Source: Ignavibacteriaceae bacterium (GTDB lineage: Bacteria > Bacteroidota > Ignavibacteria > Ignavibacteriales > Ignavibacteriaceae). Taken from it: a stretch of DNA of 53,584 bases. The notes under the pieces are model-generated. The model was given only the letters and a program-made list of their open reading frames with translations. It was not told where the DNA came from and searched no databases. Below are positions 11,162 to 19,832 of the stretch, piece by piece (within the stretch, counting starts at the first letter, position 1; every line of letters starts with the position of its first letter). Position numbers and translations under genes: made by a program. Where the stretch lies: positions 1 to 53,584 of the forward strand of contig JARLHC010000006.1 of the NCBI GenBank assembly GCA_031292455.1. The letters are read 5' to 3'.

Positions 11162-11182
11162 AGAAACAAGTTCTTTTAGGTA

Positions 11183-11287
11183 TTACGGTGTCCCGGGTAG
11201 AACGGGAAAGATAGGGAATCCGGTGGAAATCCGGAGCTGACGCGCAACTGTAAAGATAATAAAATCAAGCCAGGAGACCTGCCGTAA
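11183..11287 (+). promoter_or_regulatory. Cobalamin riboswitch aptamer
   Basis: Contains the conserved cobalamin riboswitch landmarks in order: GGGAATCCGGTGGAAATCC, then GCTGACGCGCAACTGTAA, and the B12 box AAGCCAGGAGACCTGCC at 11267-11283. The ends TTACGG (11183-11188) and CCGTAA (11282-11287) form a perfect P1 helix. It precedes a TonB-dependent receptor gene, the most common target of this riboswitch in Gram-negative bacteria. Binding of adenosylcobalamin or another cobamide is expected to lower expression of the genes downstream. Confidence 0.95.
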
Positions 11288-11302
11288 ATTATTATAAACA
11301 AC

Positions 11303-11376: not shown

Positions 11377-13290
11377 ATGTTCAAATATTTCTATTATACT
11401 TTGTTATTACTGATCTTTCCAATCTGCATATTTCCGCAGAGAAGGGATTCGATTAAAACCTACCAGCTATCAGATATTGTTATTTCGGCAACAAGAACAG
11501 AAAATTCCATTATGGAATTAGCAAATTCCATTACCATAATCGATTCGGCAGAAATTGCAAGAAGGAATAAGACCACAGTATTTGATCTACTGAAAGAGGA
11601 ATACGGATTAAGTTTCACACAGGATGGTGGGGCAAATAAACTGTCATATATTTATACAAGGGGCGCGAACTCAAACCATACATTAGTGTTAATTGACGGA
11701 GTAGAAGCAAACATGCCAAGTGATCCGGGGAACTCATATGATTTCTCTTTTCTGCCTCCGGACAATATAGAAAGAATTGAAATATTGAGAGGACCACAGA
11801 GTCCTCTTTACGGTTCAGATGCAATGGCGGGAGTGATAAATATTATTACCAAGAAAGGAGACGGCGGACCTAATATATTACTCACAAGTGAAGGGGGATC
11901 GTACAGAACATACAGAGGGACAGCCGGATTAAATGGAAGTGCAGATATATTCAACTATTCAGTGAGTTTATCAAGATTTAAGACTATGGGATTTTCATCG
12001 GCATCAACAAGATATGGGAATAGTGAAAGGGACGGATCAGATAATTATAATCTGTCATCACGATTCGGATTAGATCTGGATGATATTTTGAGTTTTAATT
12101 TTTTCTATCGATTTTCGAAAGGGAGTTCTGATTATGATCAATGGGGAGGATTACATGGTGATGATCCCACTTATATATTCAATATGGAGGAAGGAGCTTT
12201 AAGAGGAGAAGCGGCATTGTCGTTATTTGACGGAATATGGAAGCTGACATTGGGAGGATCATTTTTCAGAAATGTAAGGAGATATTCATTTGATTCAACC
12301 ACCTACAATACATATTCTTCAAGAAGCCTTTATGACGGGCGCAAAGTTAATTTAGACTGGCAGAATAATATTCAAGTTAACAGCTGGAATCTTTTTACAT
12401 TAGGGATTGAATCAGTTAATGAAAGTGCTAATTCAGAGTATTATTACGGAACGAATTTGAGTTTATTTCCAGATAAGAGGACCTATACTACAGGAATATA
12501 TTTACAGGACCAGATAAAGACACAATATAATTTCTTTACAACAGTGGGAGTGAGATTTGATAAGCATAATCTTACTGGAGAAGTTACCACATACAGAATA
12601 GCACCAGCATACATAATTCCCGAAACCGGGACCAAATTAAAGCTGACTTACGGTACAGCATTCCACTCCCCTTCCCTATTTAATCTTTATGATCCGGCAT
12701 ATGGGAACCCCTTATTAAAACCAGAACGGAACAAAGGCTGGGATGCCGGAATAGAACAGAATCTTTACCATAATAATATTTCATTAGGGATAACATATTT
12801 TAATAACCAGTTTGAGGATTTATTCGGTTATGACAATAATTTTAAGACTATCAATATTGACAAAGCAGAAACGTACGGTATTGAGTTCTTTTCCACAACT
12901 ATTATTACAGCAAAGGCCAAACTTAAATTTAACTATACATACACAAAAGCCACAGAATTAGAAGGACCGGATAAAGGGGAGCCATTATTACGCAGACCCA
13001 AGGATAAAATAGATTTTATATTATTTTACAATATCAGTCATGAATTAAGCGCAACAGCAGAATTAACATATTTAAGCAAAAGAGATGATGAATATTACCC
13101 TGCTTATGTACCAGTACGGGTAACATTACCCGGGTATGCAATTGTAAATTTATCGGCAAGTTATGATTTATATTCATATATGGAGATATATGGAAGGGTT
13201 GATAATTTATTTAATACATATTATGAAGAAGTTTACGGATATGGAACAGCAGGATTATCAGGGTACCTGGGTTTCAAGCTGAATTTTTAG
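11377..13290 (+). CDS. btuB: TonB-dependent outer-membrane cobalamin receptor (BtuB-like)
   Basis: Outer-membrane receptor of 637 residues for energy-dependent uptake, predicted to import vitamin B12 or related cobamides. A signal peptide covers about residues 1-21, ending near IFPQ. The plug domain follows, with the TonB-box-like region DIVISATRTEN and the plug signatures VLIDGVEAN, RIEILRGPQSPLYGSDAMAG and VINIITKKG. The rest forms a 22-strand barrel and ends in an aromatic residue (GFKLNF), the signal for outer-membrane assembly. The ligand assignment rests mainly on the cobalamin riboswitch immediately upstream; the plug region also resembles BtuB. CAGGGAG upstream of the ATG serves as ribosome binding site. 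A small membrane protein gene follows, before the operon terminator. Confidence 0.92.
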   Translation: MFKYFYYTLLLLIFPICIFPQRRDSIKTYQLSDIVISATRTENSIMELANSITIIDSAEIARRNKTTVFDLLKEEYGLSFTQDGGANKLSYIYTRGANSNHTLVLIDGVEANMPSDPGNSYDFSFLPPDNIERIEILRGPQSPLYGSDAMAGVINIITKKGDGGPNILLTSEGGSYRTYRGTAGLNGSADIFNYSVSLSRFKTMGFSSASTRYGNSERDGSDNYNLSSRFGLDLDDILSFNFFYRFSKGSSDYDQWGGLHGDDPTYIFNMEEGALRGEAALSLFDGIWKLTLGGSFFRNVRRYSFDSTTYNTYSSRSLYDGRKVNLDWQNNIQVNSWNLFTLGIESVNESANSEYYYGTNLSLFPDKRTYTTGIYLQDQIKTQYNFFTTVGVRFDKHNLTGEVTTYRIAPAYIIPETGTKLKLTYGTAFHSPSLFNLYDPAYGNPLLKPERNKGWDAGIEQNLYHNNISLGITYFNNQFEDLFGYDNNFKTINIDKAETYGIEFFSTTIITAKAKLKFNYTYTKATELEGPDKGEPLLRRPKDKIDFILFYNISHELSATAELTYLSKRDDEYYPAYVPVRVTLPGYAIVNLSASYDLYSYMEIYGRVDNLFNTYYEEVYGYGTAGLSGYLGFKLNF

Positions 13291-14100: not shown

Positions 14101-15333
14101 ATGGAACCAAAGAAACTATATAAGACTGTCGAGACAATTGCATCAAAGAATTTTCCATCCAATACTGAGATGCTGATATCAGTAATACGGGAGTTAATAG
14201 AAAACTATGCAATAAATCTAACCGGTGGAAGGCTATGGGAACTAAACACTGATTCCGGTACATACAAATTGATATTCCAGACAGGCAAGGTAGACAAGAT
14301 AGAGGATAATTTTTCAATAAAAATTGATGAGTATCCGATATTTGATCTAATAGCTAAAGAGAGGACAGTAGTAGACAATGAGACTAATATGATATTAAGA
14401 AGCAAGGGTATATTTAAATATTCGGCTTCAGGCGTAGGAGACAGGATAAAATATGACGGAAAGACTTATTATGAATATCTACTTGCACTTAACAGCAATG
14501 ACATAAATGAAGAATTTTTAATTACACTTAATATTATAGCCACTGCATTGACATCCAAGATTAAGTCAAGGAAATATCATTTAAGGGCAAAGGAACTACG
14601 AGCAGATATCGATAAAGCGAGGGAGCTTCAAAAGAGCATATTGCCAGAGCATGAATATAAGTTTCACAATTACGAATTATTCGGAATAACTGATCCTGCT
14701 GAAATAGTGGGGGGAGATTTTTTTGATTATCTTGATATAGGAGGGGACTCGCAGAGACTTGGTGTGACAGTAGGAGATGCTGCGAGCAAAGGGGTAAGCG
14801 CAGCAGCGGAGGCAATGTATATATCGGGAGCATTGCGGATGGCATCAAACTTTGAGATTAATATTTTACCTTTAATGAAACGCATGAACCAATTAGTTAA
14901 TAAGATATTTGCCGATGATAAATTTGCATCACTATTTTACGGTGAGTTAACCAATGATAAAAGCGGATTATTTCTTTATGCGAATGCAGGGCACAATCCC
15001 CCGTTATTCGTAAAGAAAGGAACTGATAAGATAATATTTTTAGACTCAACAGGACCGGTATTAGGACCTGCACCACAGGCAATTTACACTATAGGAAGTA
15101 TAAACTTTGGATTAGGGGATGTGCTACTTATATTTTCAGACGGAGTAACGGAATCGGCGAATTCTGAGTTTGAGCAATATGGAGATGACCGATTGAGAAA
15201 ACTTATTACTGAAATCAGTGATAAATCATCTAAAGAAATAGCATATACAATACTGGAAGATGTTATAAAGTTTTCCAAGAACGGGCAATATTCAGATGAT
15301 AAGACACTAGTAGTGATCAAGAGAGTAAAATAA
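14101..15333 (+). CDS. PP2C-type serine phosphatase, SpoIIE/RsbU family, with N-terminal sensor-like domain
   Basis: Soluble regulator of 410 residues. The C-terminal half (about 170-410) is a SpoIIE/RsbU-type phosphatase domain that typically dephosphorylates an anti-sigma antagonist. It starts with the helical linker ELQKSILPEH and shows the metal-binding motifs VGGDFFDYLD, VGDAASKGVSAA, ANAGHNPPLF and FSDGVTESAN, all with intact aspartates. The N-terminal 160 residues look GAF-like in length and spacing but have no clear ligand motif. CCAGGA lies eight bases before the ATG at 14101. An aldehyde dehydrogenase gene follows after 14 bases with its own AGAGGAAG, so the two are probably cotranscribed. 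No STAS or anti-sigma kinase gene is nearby, so the target is unknown. Confidence 0.9.
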   Translation: MEPKKLYKTVETIASKNFPSNTEMLISVIRELIENYAINLTGGRLWELNTDSGTYKLIFQTGKVDKIEDNFSIKIDEYPIFDLIAKERTVVDNETNMILRSKGIFKYSASGVGDRIKYDGKTYYEYLLALNSNDINEEFLITLNIIATALTSKIKSRKYHLRAKELRADIDKARELQKSILPEHEYKFHNYELFGITDPAEIVGGDFFDYLDIGGDSQRLGVTVGDAASKGVSAAAEAMYISGALRMASNFEINILPLMKRMNQLVNKIFADDKFASLFYGELTNDKSGLFLYANAGHNPPLFVKKGTDKIIFLDSTGPVLGPAPQAIYTIGSINFGLGDVLLIFSDGVTESANSEFEQYGDDRLRKLITEISDKSSKEIAYTILEDVIKFSKNGQYSDDKTLVVIKRVK

Positions 15334-15347
15334 GAGGAAGAATTGAT

Positions 15348-16712
15348 ATGATAAAATCTTTTAACCCAGCAACGGAAGAAGAAATTAAATCATATACAGC
15401 AATGGGGAAAGATGAAACAGACCGCATCATTATTAACGCTGATAATTCATTTGATATATGGAAGAGAACGAGTTTTTCACTAAGAGCAGAAAGAATGAAA
15501 GCTGCGGGAAAAGTATTAAGGCAAAGGAGAGAGAGCTTGTCAATATTAATGACAGCAGAGATGGGAAAACCGATTACACAGTCACGTAGTGAGATAGATA
15601 AATGTGCTTTTGTTTGCTATTACTATGCTGAGAATGCGGAGAGGTTTTTACAAGATGAGACAGTAGAAACCGATGCAACAAAGAGTTTTATAACATACCA
15701 GCCATTGGGGGTAATATTAGCGATAATGCCATGGAATTTTCCTTTCTGGCAAGTATTCCGTTTTGCTGCTCCGAACATAATGGCAGGAAATGCAGGTATA
15801 CTTAAGCATTCTTCAAATGTAACGGGATGCGGATTAGCGATTGAGAATATTTTCAGAGAGGCAGGATTCCCGGAAAACCTATTCAGGACTTTGATTATTG
15901 ATTCCTGCAAAGTTGGAGACATTATCAAGAATGACAGAATAAAGGGGGTAACATTGACAGGGAGTACTGCCGCAGGGAAATCTGTTGCGGCAATTGCAGG
16001 ATCGGTAATAAAGAAATCAGTTCTTGAATTAGGAGGAAGTGATCCCTATATAATTTTAGAAGATGCAGAACTTGAAAAAGCTGCTGAAATATGTGTGAAT
16101 TCGAGATTGATTAATAGCGGACAGAGCTGTATCGCAGCCAAAAGGTTTATAATAGTCAATGAAGTCTACCGGAAATTTGAGGACTTATTTGTTGAGAAGA
16201 TGAAATCCAAAGTTATGGGTGATCCAATGAAAGAGGATACAATTGTTGGGCCACAAGCTAGAAATGATCTCAGAGCAGGTTTACATGAACAGGTAATTAA
16301 GAGTGTTAGATCAGGAGCCAAGGTAATAATAGGGGGAAAAATCCCCGATAATAAAGGAGCATTTTATCCTCCTACAGTACTTACAAATGTTGAACCGGAG
16401 ATGCCAGCGTATAAGGAAGAGTTATTTGGTCCAGTTGCGTGCTTAATAAGAGTAAAGAATGAAGCTGATGCAATAAGGATAGCGAACGATTCAGTTTTCG
16501 GGTTAGGGGGTGCTGTATTCACTCAAGATATAGCACGCGGAGAAAGGATTGCAAGAGAAGAGTTAAATGCGGGGAATTGTTTTGTTAATGAATCAGTAAA
16601 GTCCGATCCACGACTTCCCTTTGGGGGGGTGAAGGAATCGGGATATGGAAGGGAGTTATCCGTATCAGGGATAAAGGAATTTGTTAATATAAAAACTGTG
16701 TACAGGAAATAG
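15348..16712 (+). CDS. Aldehyde dehydrogenase, succinate-semialdehyde dehydrogenase type
   Basis: NAD(P)-dependent aldehyde dehydrogenase of 454 residues. The catalytic cysteine is Cys261 in NSGQSC and the general base is Glu227 in LELGG; GSTAAG is the Rossmann nucleotide loop. The N-terminal signature PWNFPFWQVFRFAAPNIMAG, and the overall length near 455, match the short succinate-semialdehyde dehydrogenase group (Sad/YneI) that converts succinate semialdehyde to succinate. Substrate is not certain because related enzymes act on other semialdehydes. The C-terminal FGGVKESGYGRELS is also typical. It has a good ribosome binding site (AGAGGAAG) 14 bases after the phosphatase gene. It is about 32 kb from the microcompartment shell genes and shows no N-terminal encapsulation-type helix, so it is not an obvious cargo. 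Confidence 0.88.
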   Translation: MIKSFNPATEEEIKSYTAMGKDETDRIIINADNSFDIWKRTSFSLRAERMKAAGKVLRQRRESLSILMTAEMGKPITQSRSEIDKCAFVCYYYAENAERFLQDETVETDATKSFITYQPLGVILAIMPWNFPFWQVFRFAAPNIMAGNAGILKHSSNVTGCGLAIENIFREAGFPENLFRTLIIDSCKVGDIIKNDRIKGVTLTGSTAAGKSVAAIAGSVIKKSVLELGGSDPYIILEDAELEKAAEICVNSRLINSGQSCIAAKRFIIVNEVYRKFEDLFVEKMKSKVMGDPMKEDTIVGPQARNDLRAGLHEQVIKSVRSGAKVIIGGKIPDNKGAFYPPTVLTNVEPEMPAYKEELFGPVACLIRVKNEADAIRIANDSVFGLGGAVFTQDIARGERIAREELNAGNCFVNESVKSDPRLPFGGVKESGYGRELSVSGIKEFVNIKTVYRK

Positions 16713-16763
16713 AGTATTATAAAGCTGCGATTAAAATTTTAGAGTAAATAAATAAAAAAGGAC

Positions 16764-16792
16764 TTGACTAAAAGGCAAACAAATTATATAAT
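16764..16792 (+). promoter_or_regulatory. Near-consensus sigma-70 promoter of an RNA gene
   Basis: TTGACT at 16764-16769, then exactly 17 bases, then the perfect TATAAT at 16787-16792, giving a predicted start at the G near 16799. No open reading frame lies downstream on this strand before the convergent methyltransferase gene. Confidence 0.75.
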
Positions 16793-16798
16793 ATAGGG

Positions 16799-16935
16799 GC
16801 ATATTTAACCTTCCGAAAGCATAATCCCAATGATTTTCAGTGCGCTAAAAGTCGTTAAAAAGCAGGTGAAAGGCCGATACAGAGCGGAAATAGAGTAATA
16901 GCTCATAGGGGGAGGTTACAGACCAGTTATTAAGA
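16799..16935 (+). ncRNA. Candidate structured small RNA, family unknown
   Basis: ORF-free segment that starts at the predicted +1 of a near-consensus promoter. An outer helix joins AACCTTCC (16807-16814) with GGGAGGTT (16910-16917). Inside it, TGATTTT (16831-16837) pairs with AAAAGTCG (16848-16854), with wobble and one end pair, and GAGC (16882-16885) pairs with GCTC (16901-16904). I could not match it to 6S RNA, SRP RNA, tmRNA or RNase P from remembered motifs. Two 11-base stretches, GGTGAAAGGCC and GTAATAGCTCA, also occur in bacterial 23S rRNA domain II, but this may be chance. No convincing terminator is visible, so the 3' end is a guess. Confidence 0.5.
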
Positions 16936-16971
16936 TATATCTTTTGATTGAGGGGAAGGGGGATTGATGAA

Positions 16972-17508
16972 TTATAACTGATCGAAGGTTTTTCTTAAAT
17001 CAAATATAGCGATGCCATAGGCGACAGCTACATTGAGTGATTGTTTAATACCATACTGGGGAATTTCGATTGAGAGATCGCAAAGATCAAGTAAATCCTG
17101 TGACACGCCAGTAATTTCATTTCCAACCACAAGACACAGAGGAAAATTGTTATTTTCCAGCTTATAATATTCACTGCTTGATTCAGTTAATTCCAGTGCG
17201 CAAATCTTAATCCCCTGCTCTTTTAATTTTAATATTACTTCTTTAGGATCCTTTACATATTCCCAGGAGACACTATCGACAGCGCCGAGTGCAGTTTTTA
17301 ATATTTCTTTTTTAGGAGGATGGGGAGTATATCCACAGAGATAGAGTTTTTCGATCATTGCTCCATCGGAAGTTCTGAATATTGAACCGACATTATAATT
17401 ACTACGGATGCTATCAAGCAGAACATATACAGGAAGTTTTTTTACAAGGTGAAGGGTTTCAATGGTACTTCTGTTTTGGGATATTTCGTCGTGAGTTAGT
17501 TTTTTCAT
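16972..17508 (-). CDS. TrmH/SpoU-family RNA 2'-O-methyltransferase
   Basis: SPOUT-class methyltransferase of 178 residues that uses S-adenosylmethionine to methylate a ribose 2'-hydroxyl in tRNA or rRNA. The three SpoU motifs are present: LDSIRSNYNVGSIFRTSDG with the catalytic arginine, LVVGNEITGVS, and the knot motif IPQYGIKQSLNVAVAYGIA. It lacks the N-terminal substrate-binding extension of RlmB-type enzymes, so it resembles compact TrmH-like proteins; the exact RNA target cannot be stated. The start is six bases after the rlmN stop, so it is the second gene of an RNA-modification operon. It converges on the candidate small RNA at 16799-16935. Confidence 0.88.
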   Translation of the reverse strand: MKKLTHDEISQNRSTIETLHLVKKLPVYVLLDSIRSNYNVGSIFRTSDGAMIEKLYLCGYTPHPPKKEILKTALGAVDSVSWEYVKDPKEVILKLKEQGIKICALELTESSSEYYKLENNNFPLCLVVGNEITGVSQDLLDLCDLSIEIPQYGIKQSLNVAVAYGIAIFDLRKTFDQL

Positions 17509-17514
17509 TAGATT

Positions 17515-18582
17515 TCAAGAATAGTTAGTAGCGAGCTGTCCGCATGCAGCGGCAATATCATCGCCCTGTGTATAACGCACGATGACAGTAATATTCCTAT
17601 CGCGGAGACGGGTGACAAAGTCTTCAATTTTACGTTTAGGAGTTGGTTCAAGCTGAGCTGAATAACCTTCAGGGTTCATATGTTTTAATGAATTGAACGG
17701 AATGATATTTATTTTGGAAGGGATTTCAGCGCATAATTTGGCGAGCGCATTTATATCATCCTGGCGGTCGTTAATTCCTTTAAGCATAACATACTCAAAA
17801 GTAACGCGGGTACCTGTTCTTTTAACATAGTATTTGATTGCATCGATATTCTGTTTAAGGGAATATTTCAGATTTACGGGCATAATTTTAGAGCGAGTAT
17901 CCTCAAAGCATGAATGAAGGGAGAGGGCGATTTTAACCTTCAGACCCGAATCAGCGAGTTCAATTATTTTGGGCGCAATACCGGCTGTTGAAACGGTAAT
18001 CTTTTTAAGACTGATACCTGTAGTAAGTTCATCGGCAAATATTTTAAGTGAATTGAGGGTTGCCGAATAATTCAAAAGAGGTTCACCCATACCCATATAA
18101 ACGATGTTGGAAATATTATCTTTCCCATAATCTTTAGCTGCAAGCAAATACTGGTCGAATATTTCACCGGCAGTAAGATTCTTTTTATAGCCCATCAGTC
18201 CTGTAGCGCAGAATTTGCAATCGAGGGGACACCCGATCTGGGTGGAGATGCAAAGGGTAGTTCTATTTTCCTCTGGGATAATAACGGATTCTATTTTATT
18301 ATGCTCAATAGTTTCAAATATAAATTTCTTAGTACCCGAAGAAGCGGATATTTGGGAATCTACAAAATCGAGGGTTTTAATAATTGTATCGTCAGCCAAT
18401 TTACTGCGGAGTAATTTAGGGAGGTTATCCATTTCTCCGAAAAGGGTGGCAAGATGATTATACATCCAATTGAATACCTGTCCTCCTCTGAACTTAGGTT
18501 CACCAATGGAAACGAAATAATTATTAAGCTCTTCGAGGGGCATACCCTTAAGGAGAACTTTCTTTTTAGCAATCTGAATCAT
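17515..18582 (-). CDS. rlmN: 23S rRNA/tRNA (adenine-C2)-methyltransferase RlmN
   Basis: Radical SAM enzyme of 355 residues that methylates C2 of A2503 in 23S rRNA and A37 in some tRNAs. The [4Fe-4S] motif is CKFCATG, in the context QIGCPLDCKFCATGLMG. Other family signatures are YMGMGEPLLNY, the SAM-contacting ALSLHS, and the acceptor cysteine near the C-terminus in GDDIAAACGQL. Length is typical. The ATG at 18582 lacks a good ribosome binding site. The downstream TrmH-type gene is six bases away. Divergent from the acyl-CoA dehydrogenase gene, with about 100 bases between them. A Cfr-type resistance enzyme is the main alternative, but the sequence motifs and genomic setting favour RlmN. Confidence 0.95.
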   Translation of the reverse strand: MIQIAKKKVLLKGMPLEELNNYFVSIGEPKFRGGQVFNWMYNHLATLFGEMDNLPKLLRSKLADDTIIKTLDFVDSQISASSGTKKFIFETIEHNKIESVIIPEENRTTLCISTQIGCPLDCKFCATGLMGYKKNLTAGEIFDQYLLAAKDYGKDNISNIVYMGMGEPLLNYSATLNSLKIFADELTTGISLKKITVSTAGIAPKIIELADSGLKVKIALSLHSCFEDTRSKIMPVNLKYSLKQNIDAIKYYVKRTGTRVTFEYVMLKGINDRQDDINALAKLCAEIPSKINIIPFNSLKHMNPEGYSAQLEPTPKRKIEDFVTRLRDRNITVIVRYTQGDDIAAACGQLATNYS

Positions 18583-18680: not shown

Positions 18681-19832
18681 ATGAATTTTGACTTGACAGA
18701 AGAACAGTTAATGATACAGGAGGCAGCAAGGGATTTTGCAGAAGCAGAGATTGCCCCATCAACAATTCAAAGAGATATTAACGCTGAATTTCCGAAGGAC
18801 ATTGTTAAGAAATTAGGGGAGCTTGGATTTTTAGGCATGATGGTACCGCCCGAATACGGAGGGGCAGGATTAGATACTATAAGTTATGTACTTGCCATGA
18901 TTGAAATATCAAAAGTAGATGCCAGTGTAGGGGTAATAATGTCAGTTAATAATTCATTAGTTTGTTACGGACTGGAAGAGTACGGAACTGATTACATCAA
19001 AGAGAAATATTTAGTACCACTTGCGAAGGGGGAAAAGCTCGGAGCATTTGCATTATCGGAACCTGAAGCAGGGAGTGATGCTACAAAGCAGAAGACCACA
19101 GCGGATAAAGATGGAGATTATTATATACTTAACGGTATAAAGAACTGGACAACTAACGGAACTACGGCTGATTATTATATTGTTATTGCTACCACGGATA
19201 AGTCGCTAGGGCACAAAGGAATATCCACATTCATAGTAGAGAAAGGTACACCTGGATTCGAGCATGGCAAGAAGGAAGACAAATTAGGAATCAGAAGTTC
19301 CGACACATGTTCTTTAACATTTGAAGGATGCAGGGTACCTAAAGAGAATCTTGTATGGAGTGAAGGGAAGGGATTCAATTTTGCAATGAATACATTAAAC
19401 GGGGGGCGGATTGGGATTGCAGCGCAAGCGATTGGTATAGCTGAAGCATCCTTAAATGCCGCGATTAAATACTCAAAGGAGAGGAAAGCATTCGGAGCGA
19501 CGATATCGAATTTTCAGGCAATCCAGTTCAAGTTAGCCGACATGGCTGTAAAAGTGGATGCAGCAAAGCTACTGACATTCAAAGCAGCGGCATTGAAGGA
19601 TTCTAAAAAGAAATATTATAATGAAGCGGCGATGGCAAAATTATATTCAAGCAAGATTGCGGTGGAATGTGCATTAGAAGCAATACAGATCCACGGCGGT
19701 TATGGTTATGTAAGAGAGTATCTTGTTGAAAGATATTTACGGGATGCGAAGATAACAGAAATATATGAAGGAACCTCGGAGATCCAGAAGATGGTGATTT
19801 CAAGAGGGTTGATGGATGAGCATAATAAATAA
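18681..19832 (+). CDS. Acyl-CoA dehydrogenase (butyryl/short-chain type)
   Basis: FAD enzyme of 383 residues that introduces the alpha-beta double bond into acyl-CoA. Family signatures include FALSEPEAGSDA (FAD/substrate contact), ERKAFGATISNFQAIQFKLADMA (shown here only as the known FAD-binding region at about 275-297) and the C-terminal LRDAKITEIYEGTSEIQ, whose IYEGTSE carries the catalytic glutamate. The pattern and length match short-chain, butyryl-CoA-type dehydrogenases. AAGGA lies upstream of the ATG. It is not adjacent to electron-transfer flavoprotein genes or other beta-oxidation genes in this window, so its electron acceptor and exact chain length are open. Confidence 0.93.
   Translation: MNFDLTEEQLMIQEAARDFAEAEIAPSTIQRDINAEFPKDIVKKLGELGFLGMMVPPEYGGAGLDTISYVLAMIEISKVDASVGVIMSVNNSLVCYGLEEYGTDYIKEKYLVPLAKGEKLGAFALSEPEAGSDATKQKTTADKDGDYYILNGIKNWTTNGTTADYYIVIATTDKSLGHKGISTFIVEKGTPGFEHGKKEDKLGIRSSDTCSLTFEGCRVPKENLVWSEGKGFNFAMNTLNGGRIGIAAQAIGIAEASLNAAIKYSKERKAFGATISNFQAIQFKLADMAVKVDAAKLLTFKAAALKDSKKKYYNEAAMAKLYSSKIAVECALEAIQIHGGYGYVREYLVERYLRDAKITEIYEGTSEIQKMVISRGLMDEHNK

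Follow-up and report, generated by a model that had tools for sequence, protein, structure and literature searches.

The stretch of DNA analysed here, called the window in what follows, is 53,584 nt long and comes from an Ignavibacteriaceae bacterium. The site under study begins with a promoter-like pair on the + strand, the -35 hexamer TTGACT (16764–16769) and the -10 hexamer TATAAT (16787–16792), separated by a spacer of 17 nt. Facing it on the - strand is a SpoU/TrmH-type methylase frame (16972–17508), convergent with the promoter, followed by RlmN (17515–18582, also - strand), and the next + strand frame of more than 100 aa starts at 18681. The original prediction had placed here a strong promoter with no gene behind it. 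This is supported as far as a usual + strand gene is concerned, and TTGAC together with a -10-like hexamer is kept in eight copies in this genome (the window copy and seven others), below termed the G000 copies, a ninth having also been read. The term ‘ORF-free’ does not hold strictly, as the 22-codon ATG frame MIFSALKVVKKQVKGRYRAEIE lies at 16830–16898 (+ strand), although it is probably not a gene. The promoter itself is present as described, but it is not uniquely the best in the window: with spacers of 16–18 and both strands counted, 11 of 12 positions match at four sites, and 30 sequences simulated from it by a first-order Markov model have 3.4 such sites on average. Taken alone, the promoter is within chance expectation; it is lifted above chance because it recurs at fixed spacing in its relatives.

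The absence of a known RNA family at the site was confirmed by an Rfam 15 covariance search, in which nothing there exceeded the curated cut-off. In the whole window only a cobalamin riboswitch and tRNA did so; the riboswitch (11169–11300) lies upstream of a TonB-dependent receptor gene (11377–13290). Rfam includes 23S models, and with E up to 10 the region 16700–17000 gave one chance snoRNA match (E 2.4) and no 23S match.

Two structural claims fared less well. The transcript had been proposed to fold into a closed multi-branch structure, closed by a helix (16807–16917, + strand) with arms at 16807–16814 and 16910–16917. This 8-bp pairing can be drawn and is part of the minimum-energy fold of 16795–16935, but the energy of that fold equals that of shuffled sequences (z 0.02; 97 of 200 dinucleotide shuffles were as good). 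A longer stretch gives a different fold, and the window leader, when shuffled, found an equally good partner in 8% of 300 trials. We also considered a closing helix between leader and downstream sequence in nine copies and rejected it, shuffled leaders equalling it in 8–99% of trials. Furthermore, the 3' arm falls outside the unit shared by the family described below. The other claim was ribosome mimicry, based on two 11-mers, at 16865 and 16895, which that prediction placed in conserved parts of 23S rRNA domain II. One of them, GGTGAAAGGCC, occurs a single time in the assembly, at the window site; the assembly may lack its 23S gene. The second starts near the end of the shared part of the family. 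Neither is present in the loci of 14 other copies or array places, so 23S-like motifs are not conserved in the family and mimicry is not supported.

We searched the window stretch against its own genome, G000 (171 contigs, 3.36 Mb), and found two further places, one matching at 83% over 42 nt (E 9.5e-6), the other at 79% over 47 nt. These and weaker matches contain tandem 10-nt units, GTGCGCTAAA with variants such as GTGTGGTAAA, GTGCGCTTAA and GTGTGCTAAA, and a TTGAC promoter stands before most of them. A tandem-decamer pattern allowing up to three mismatches gives 19 matches at seven G000 loci, and the reversed control pattern gives none. This pattern is how the array loci were first recognised, and in all seven, as in the window copy, TTGAC lies 76–77 nt before the first unit, counted in C7 to its first unit, GTGTGGTAAA. 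The end of the -10-like hexamer is 47–50 nt from the first unit in the eight G000 copies, and the promoter spacer is 17 in seven of the eight and was scored as 15 in C133. At the window site a single intact decamer, GTGCGCTAAA at 16840–16849 (+ strand), ties the site to the family, a link absent from the original prediction. It is followed in phase by degenerate decamers (AGTCGTTAAA AAGCAGGTGA AAGGCCGATA and so on) at 16850–16899 (+ strand), which is about the end of the shared part. The idea that the decamer is an uptake word was rejected, as the window contains 2 matches at up to one mismatch compared to 1.4 expected.

Conservation over the eight aligned sequences, in bits per column without small-sample correction, is 1.78 in the -35 block, 0.75 in the spacer and 0.47 upstream of the promoter; in the leader it is 0.58 in the early part and 1.11 in the last 20 nt, and in the array 1.61 over the first 30 nt, 0.84 at +30 to +59; beyond that it drops to 0.41 at +60 to +89 and 0.36 far downstream. 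Because conservation falls beyond it, we define the shared unit as reaching from the -35 box to about +60 (window ~16762–16899). It includes an ACTTGAC block conserved in the family, TTGAC being present in all eight aligned copies, and the leader (16793–16839, + strand), which is most conserved over its last 20 nt. Stronger conservation of the -35 block than of the spacer is what one would expect of a promoter that has stayed active. From the sequence we infer that a transcript arises from the window promoter and that it starts near 16799, so that ~40 nt of the leader are transcribed.

A sequence-only model built from the eight G000 copies, R1, recovers all eight in G000 plus a ninth copy at C19 (E 4e-4), with TTGACA, TATAGT 15 nt on and worn units ~79 nt from TTGACA. 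Not every copy has a gene downstream of it: at the window copy and at C32 the frames ahead are convergent. No conserved terminator was found, a terminator-like hairpin following one of nine copies (C7) and none being present on the + strand at the window copy. The 6–8-mers shared downstream of the arrays are within the shuffle range, including AAGCCGT in four of nine. No association with a transposase or four-helix-bundle gene was noticed by eye among the frames listed around the copies.

In G001, the sole other genome of the genus, the tandem-decamer pattern gives 11 matches at four loci (reversed control 0). None of 78 other genomes of the family matches, and neither do viral contigs; a class-wide search at up to two mismatches, in a sample that did not include the sister G001, matched one of 294 genomes, the window's own. 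R1 finds C72, C39, C118, C61, C100 and, weakly, C11 (E 0.01) in G001, giving six array places. C39 is a complete copy with promoter, leader and array (R1 E 3.5e-11), and TTGACA precedes the array at two of the six, C39 (at -77) and C118 (at -44). At the other four, C61, C72, C100 and C11, TTGAC is missing from the 140 nt before the array; weak promoter-like pairs with 9 of 12 matches are present at C61 and C11. The R1 search of the genus with E up to 1 returned 28 matches, 14 per genome, of which seven at E 0.4–0.8 were left out of the reading. C19 (G000), C39 and C11 (G001) were accepted as family in that reading, and C57, C65, C120 and C1 of G001 and C103 and C142 of G000 were dropped as plain promoters or unrelated, C57 (E 0.001) being a plain promoter by eye. 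In a family-wide R1 search of 80 genomes with stricter filters, seven of the 78 other genomes gave one match each (E 0.002–0.01), in coding sequence or plain promoters by eye, which we judged to be chance. On these sequence comparisons, the family in the same form is found only in its genus.

Five places could be compared between the two genomes: arrays are present in both at two, G001 is empty at two, and the window place is absent beside a larger deletion. Ten G000 flanks were queried and four match G001 (the two of C133 and one each of C119 and C32); C108, C165 and C32 stayed outside the comparison. The gene after C1 of G000 has a relative behind C39 of G001 and a truncated one beside C118; C1 and C39 are likely the same place in both genomes. 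The protein downstream of C1 (L010 516–1295, - strand) has 259 aa and no Pfam match. C7 of G000 and C61 of G001 both lie behind the same epimerase-type gene, and C61 (L029) suggests that a deletion took out the promoter and leader there: the coding sequence of the epimerase-type gene continues into the decamers and takes its last codons from them. As for the empty places, the gap between plsY and nuoA (names by eye) contains extra DNA in G000 from about -78 to +148 (~226 nt, ends by eye) that is absent in G001, and the C133 flanks are 64 nt apart in G001 compared to ~540 nt in G000. The flanks of the empty sites are too diverged to place exact ends, and hence any target-site duplication. At the window place, the stretch lost from G001 sits between DUF6580 and the TrmH-type gene. 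By eye, G001 has lost the gene for the SpoIIE-type phosphatase, and most of the one for the aldehyde dehydrogenase is missing too, a remnant being left (window 14101–16712; L059). Since these neighbours are gone too, the absence of the element may be part of a larger deletion.

The arrays may also form structure. The unit AGUGCGCU and several unit variants self-pair through G-U, and folding of the arrays gives z between -1.8 and -5.1 in the eight other arrays folded and +0.42 in the window copy, where the hairpin is absent. Such shuffling is unfair to tandem repeats; under the fairer control, in which the decamer is permuted alike in every unit, 1.8–14% of permuted arrays were as stable. The original prediction had pointed to compensatory changes among relatives as a check on structure. 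The consensus fold of the eight-copy alignment pairs unit 1 with unit 3, and none of its eight pairs has a compensatory change. We regard the array hairpin as suggestive, and the arrays are not independent of one another. RRM_1 proteins are encoded at four places in G000 and three in G001.

The best reading of these results is that the family consists of multicopy small RNAs that also behave like a dispersed repeat. More specifically, we consider it close to an even chance, and tentatively prefer, that the site is a diverged member of a multicopy family, restricted to the genus and made up of small non-coding transcription units, which would act through the repeated unit. Transcription would start ~7 nt after the -10 box and yield a short RNA. 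In the well-kept four-unit copies the units would fold as a hairpin, unit 1 with 4 and unit 2 with 3. An RNA-binding protein, plausibly an RRM_1 protein of G000, could dock on the repeated unit, and the RNAs could jointly regulate in a dose-dependent way or serve as a sponge. With a strong promoter and most of its array lost, the window copy is probably a weak or decaying member. The conservation of the promoter in G000 favours the small-RNA interpretation. The terminator-like hairpin at just one of nine copies, the missing array hairpin in the window copy, the lack of compensatory changes and some sign of coding in one frame (below) speak against it.

The absence of the promoter from most array places in G001, where the array persists without it, favours instead a DNA repeat that is, or once was, mobile, in the manner of a MITE or a ‘mobile promoter’, in which promoter and array spread with the DNA and the transcript has no function. 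This is the main rival, somewhat less likely than the small-RNA interpretation. It would account for the two orthologous G001 sites that are empty (plsY–nuoA and C133), for the varying number of units and for worn copies such as the window and C19. It also has a precedent in the BrickBuilt MITE of Porphyromonas gingivalis, an intergenic element with a leader, a tandem repeat and internal promoters, present in 19 copies in one strain (PMC4596501). BrickBuilt shares with the decamer family the leader followed by a tandem repeat, the promoter, the intergenic position, the multiple copies and the variable number of units, but its unit is 23 nt long and its ends are small inverted repeats (PMC4596501), whereas the decamer unit has 10 nt and no inverted ends were seen. 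Indeed, no inverted decamer (up to one substitution) is present within 900 nt of the nine copies, a scan that was shorter where the locus ended (294 nt upstream of C1, 399 nt downstream of C7 and 585 nt downstream of C133). The copies have no similarity at their far ends, so no terminal inverted repeats were seen, no transposase was noticed by eye among the frames listed, and the better conservation of the -35 block than of the spacer also speaks against this reading. The small-RNA and DNA-repeat interpretations may both be true, at different copies.

Arrays of a similar kind exist elsewhere. Arrays of AGTGCCTAA/AGTGCGCTAA occur in MAGs titled Desulfobacterales, Bacteroidales, Flavobacteriales and others (L042, L044, L046, L047, L050, L054, L057, L058, L108, L112 and L116). 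They have the decamer AGTGCGCTAA in tandem in common with the family, but nonamers are mixed in; nonamer pairs are absent from G001. The arrays face each other, inverted as in MITEs, at no fewer than five of the loci that were read (L108, L112, L116, L057 and L058), and over 18 loci a single array has TTGAC 60–95 nt upstream. The counts of AGTGCCTAAAGTGC in ten genomes are 161, 71, 24, 16, 13, 7, 4, 3, 2 and 0, and the reversed control is 0 in all. We found no paper giving the repeat letters or a name for the decamer and nonamer arrays in open-licence PMC text.

A bolder version of the small-RNA interpretation is a new regulatory RNA class of the Ignavibacteriales, with similar promoters, a leader and self-pairing 10-nt units, that would titrate an RRM-type protein and make a CsrB-like global switch out of dispersed repeats; we consider this improbable. 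Sponge RNAs of the CsrB/RsmZ type repeat a short motif along one RNA, GGA in loops. The decamer arrays likewise repeat a short motif, but the motif differs.

A weak rival is that the copies are short genes encoding a small peptide, its core resembling S-A-L-K-V-V-N-L-P-x-K-S-R. An 11-codon core after the last decamer ends in Arg in all nine G000 copies, through five different codons, and its mean pairwise BLOSUM62 score exceeds column permutation with P 0.007 for all columns and 0.009 with the first two codons fixed, in a frame that was chosen after seeing it, without correction for six frames, the other five scoring lower. The unit variant GTGCGCTTAA also takes away a stop in the peptide frame. 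The start, however, is not conserved: three copies (window, C119 and C133) have ATG and the other six GTG at best, and the 10-nt units shift the frame with copy number. In G001, where Ns interrupt C39, each of the five tails read carries a stop two codons ahead of the core, with no start codon following that stop; C61 and C72 have a stop inside the core as well, and Arg is at codon 11 in none of the five. Finally, a chance promoter-like site, strong but ordinary for A+T-rich DNA and without a transcript of interest, would fit the number of 11-of-12 sites (four compared to 3.4 expected) and a fold no better than shuffles, but is very improbable given that the stretch matches other G000 places (83% over 42 nt, E 9.5e-6) with fixed spacing between promoter and decamer.

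For the preferred small-RNA interpretation, the closest analogue is found in Bacteroides thetaiotaomicron, which also belongs to the Bacteroidota. Its FopS sRNAs comprise 14 paralogues in the strain studied and 12–15 across species, scattered over the genome and intergenic in 9 of 14 cases, with canonical promoters, a single-stranded 5' seed and a Rho-independent terminator; their partner RbpB is an RRM-1 protein, and FopS has been deposited in Rfam (PMC11697453). The match-free search of our site in Rfam 15 bears on FopS only if that release holds it. The decamer family is likewise multicopy, scattered and promoter-bearing, in a genome that encodes RRM_1 proteins. As far as the consulted part of the FopS report goes, it describes no tandem array, whereas the decamer family is built on one; FopS has a Rho-independent terminator, compared to a terminator-like hairpin after one of nine decamer copies; and each FopS copy has a canonical promoter, compared to eight of eight copies in G000 and two of six array places in G001. 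Our analysis adds a multicopy, promoter-bearing family of tandem decamers for which we found neither an Rfam family nor, in open-licence PMC text, a paper. If transcribed, it would be a compact system in which to ask whether sRNA genes arise from dispersed repeats, the genomes also encoding RRM proteins.
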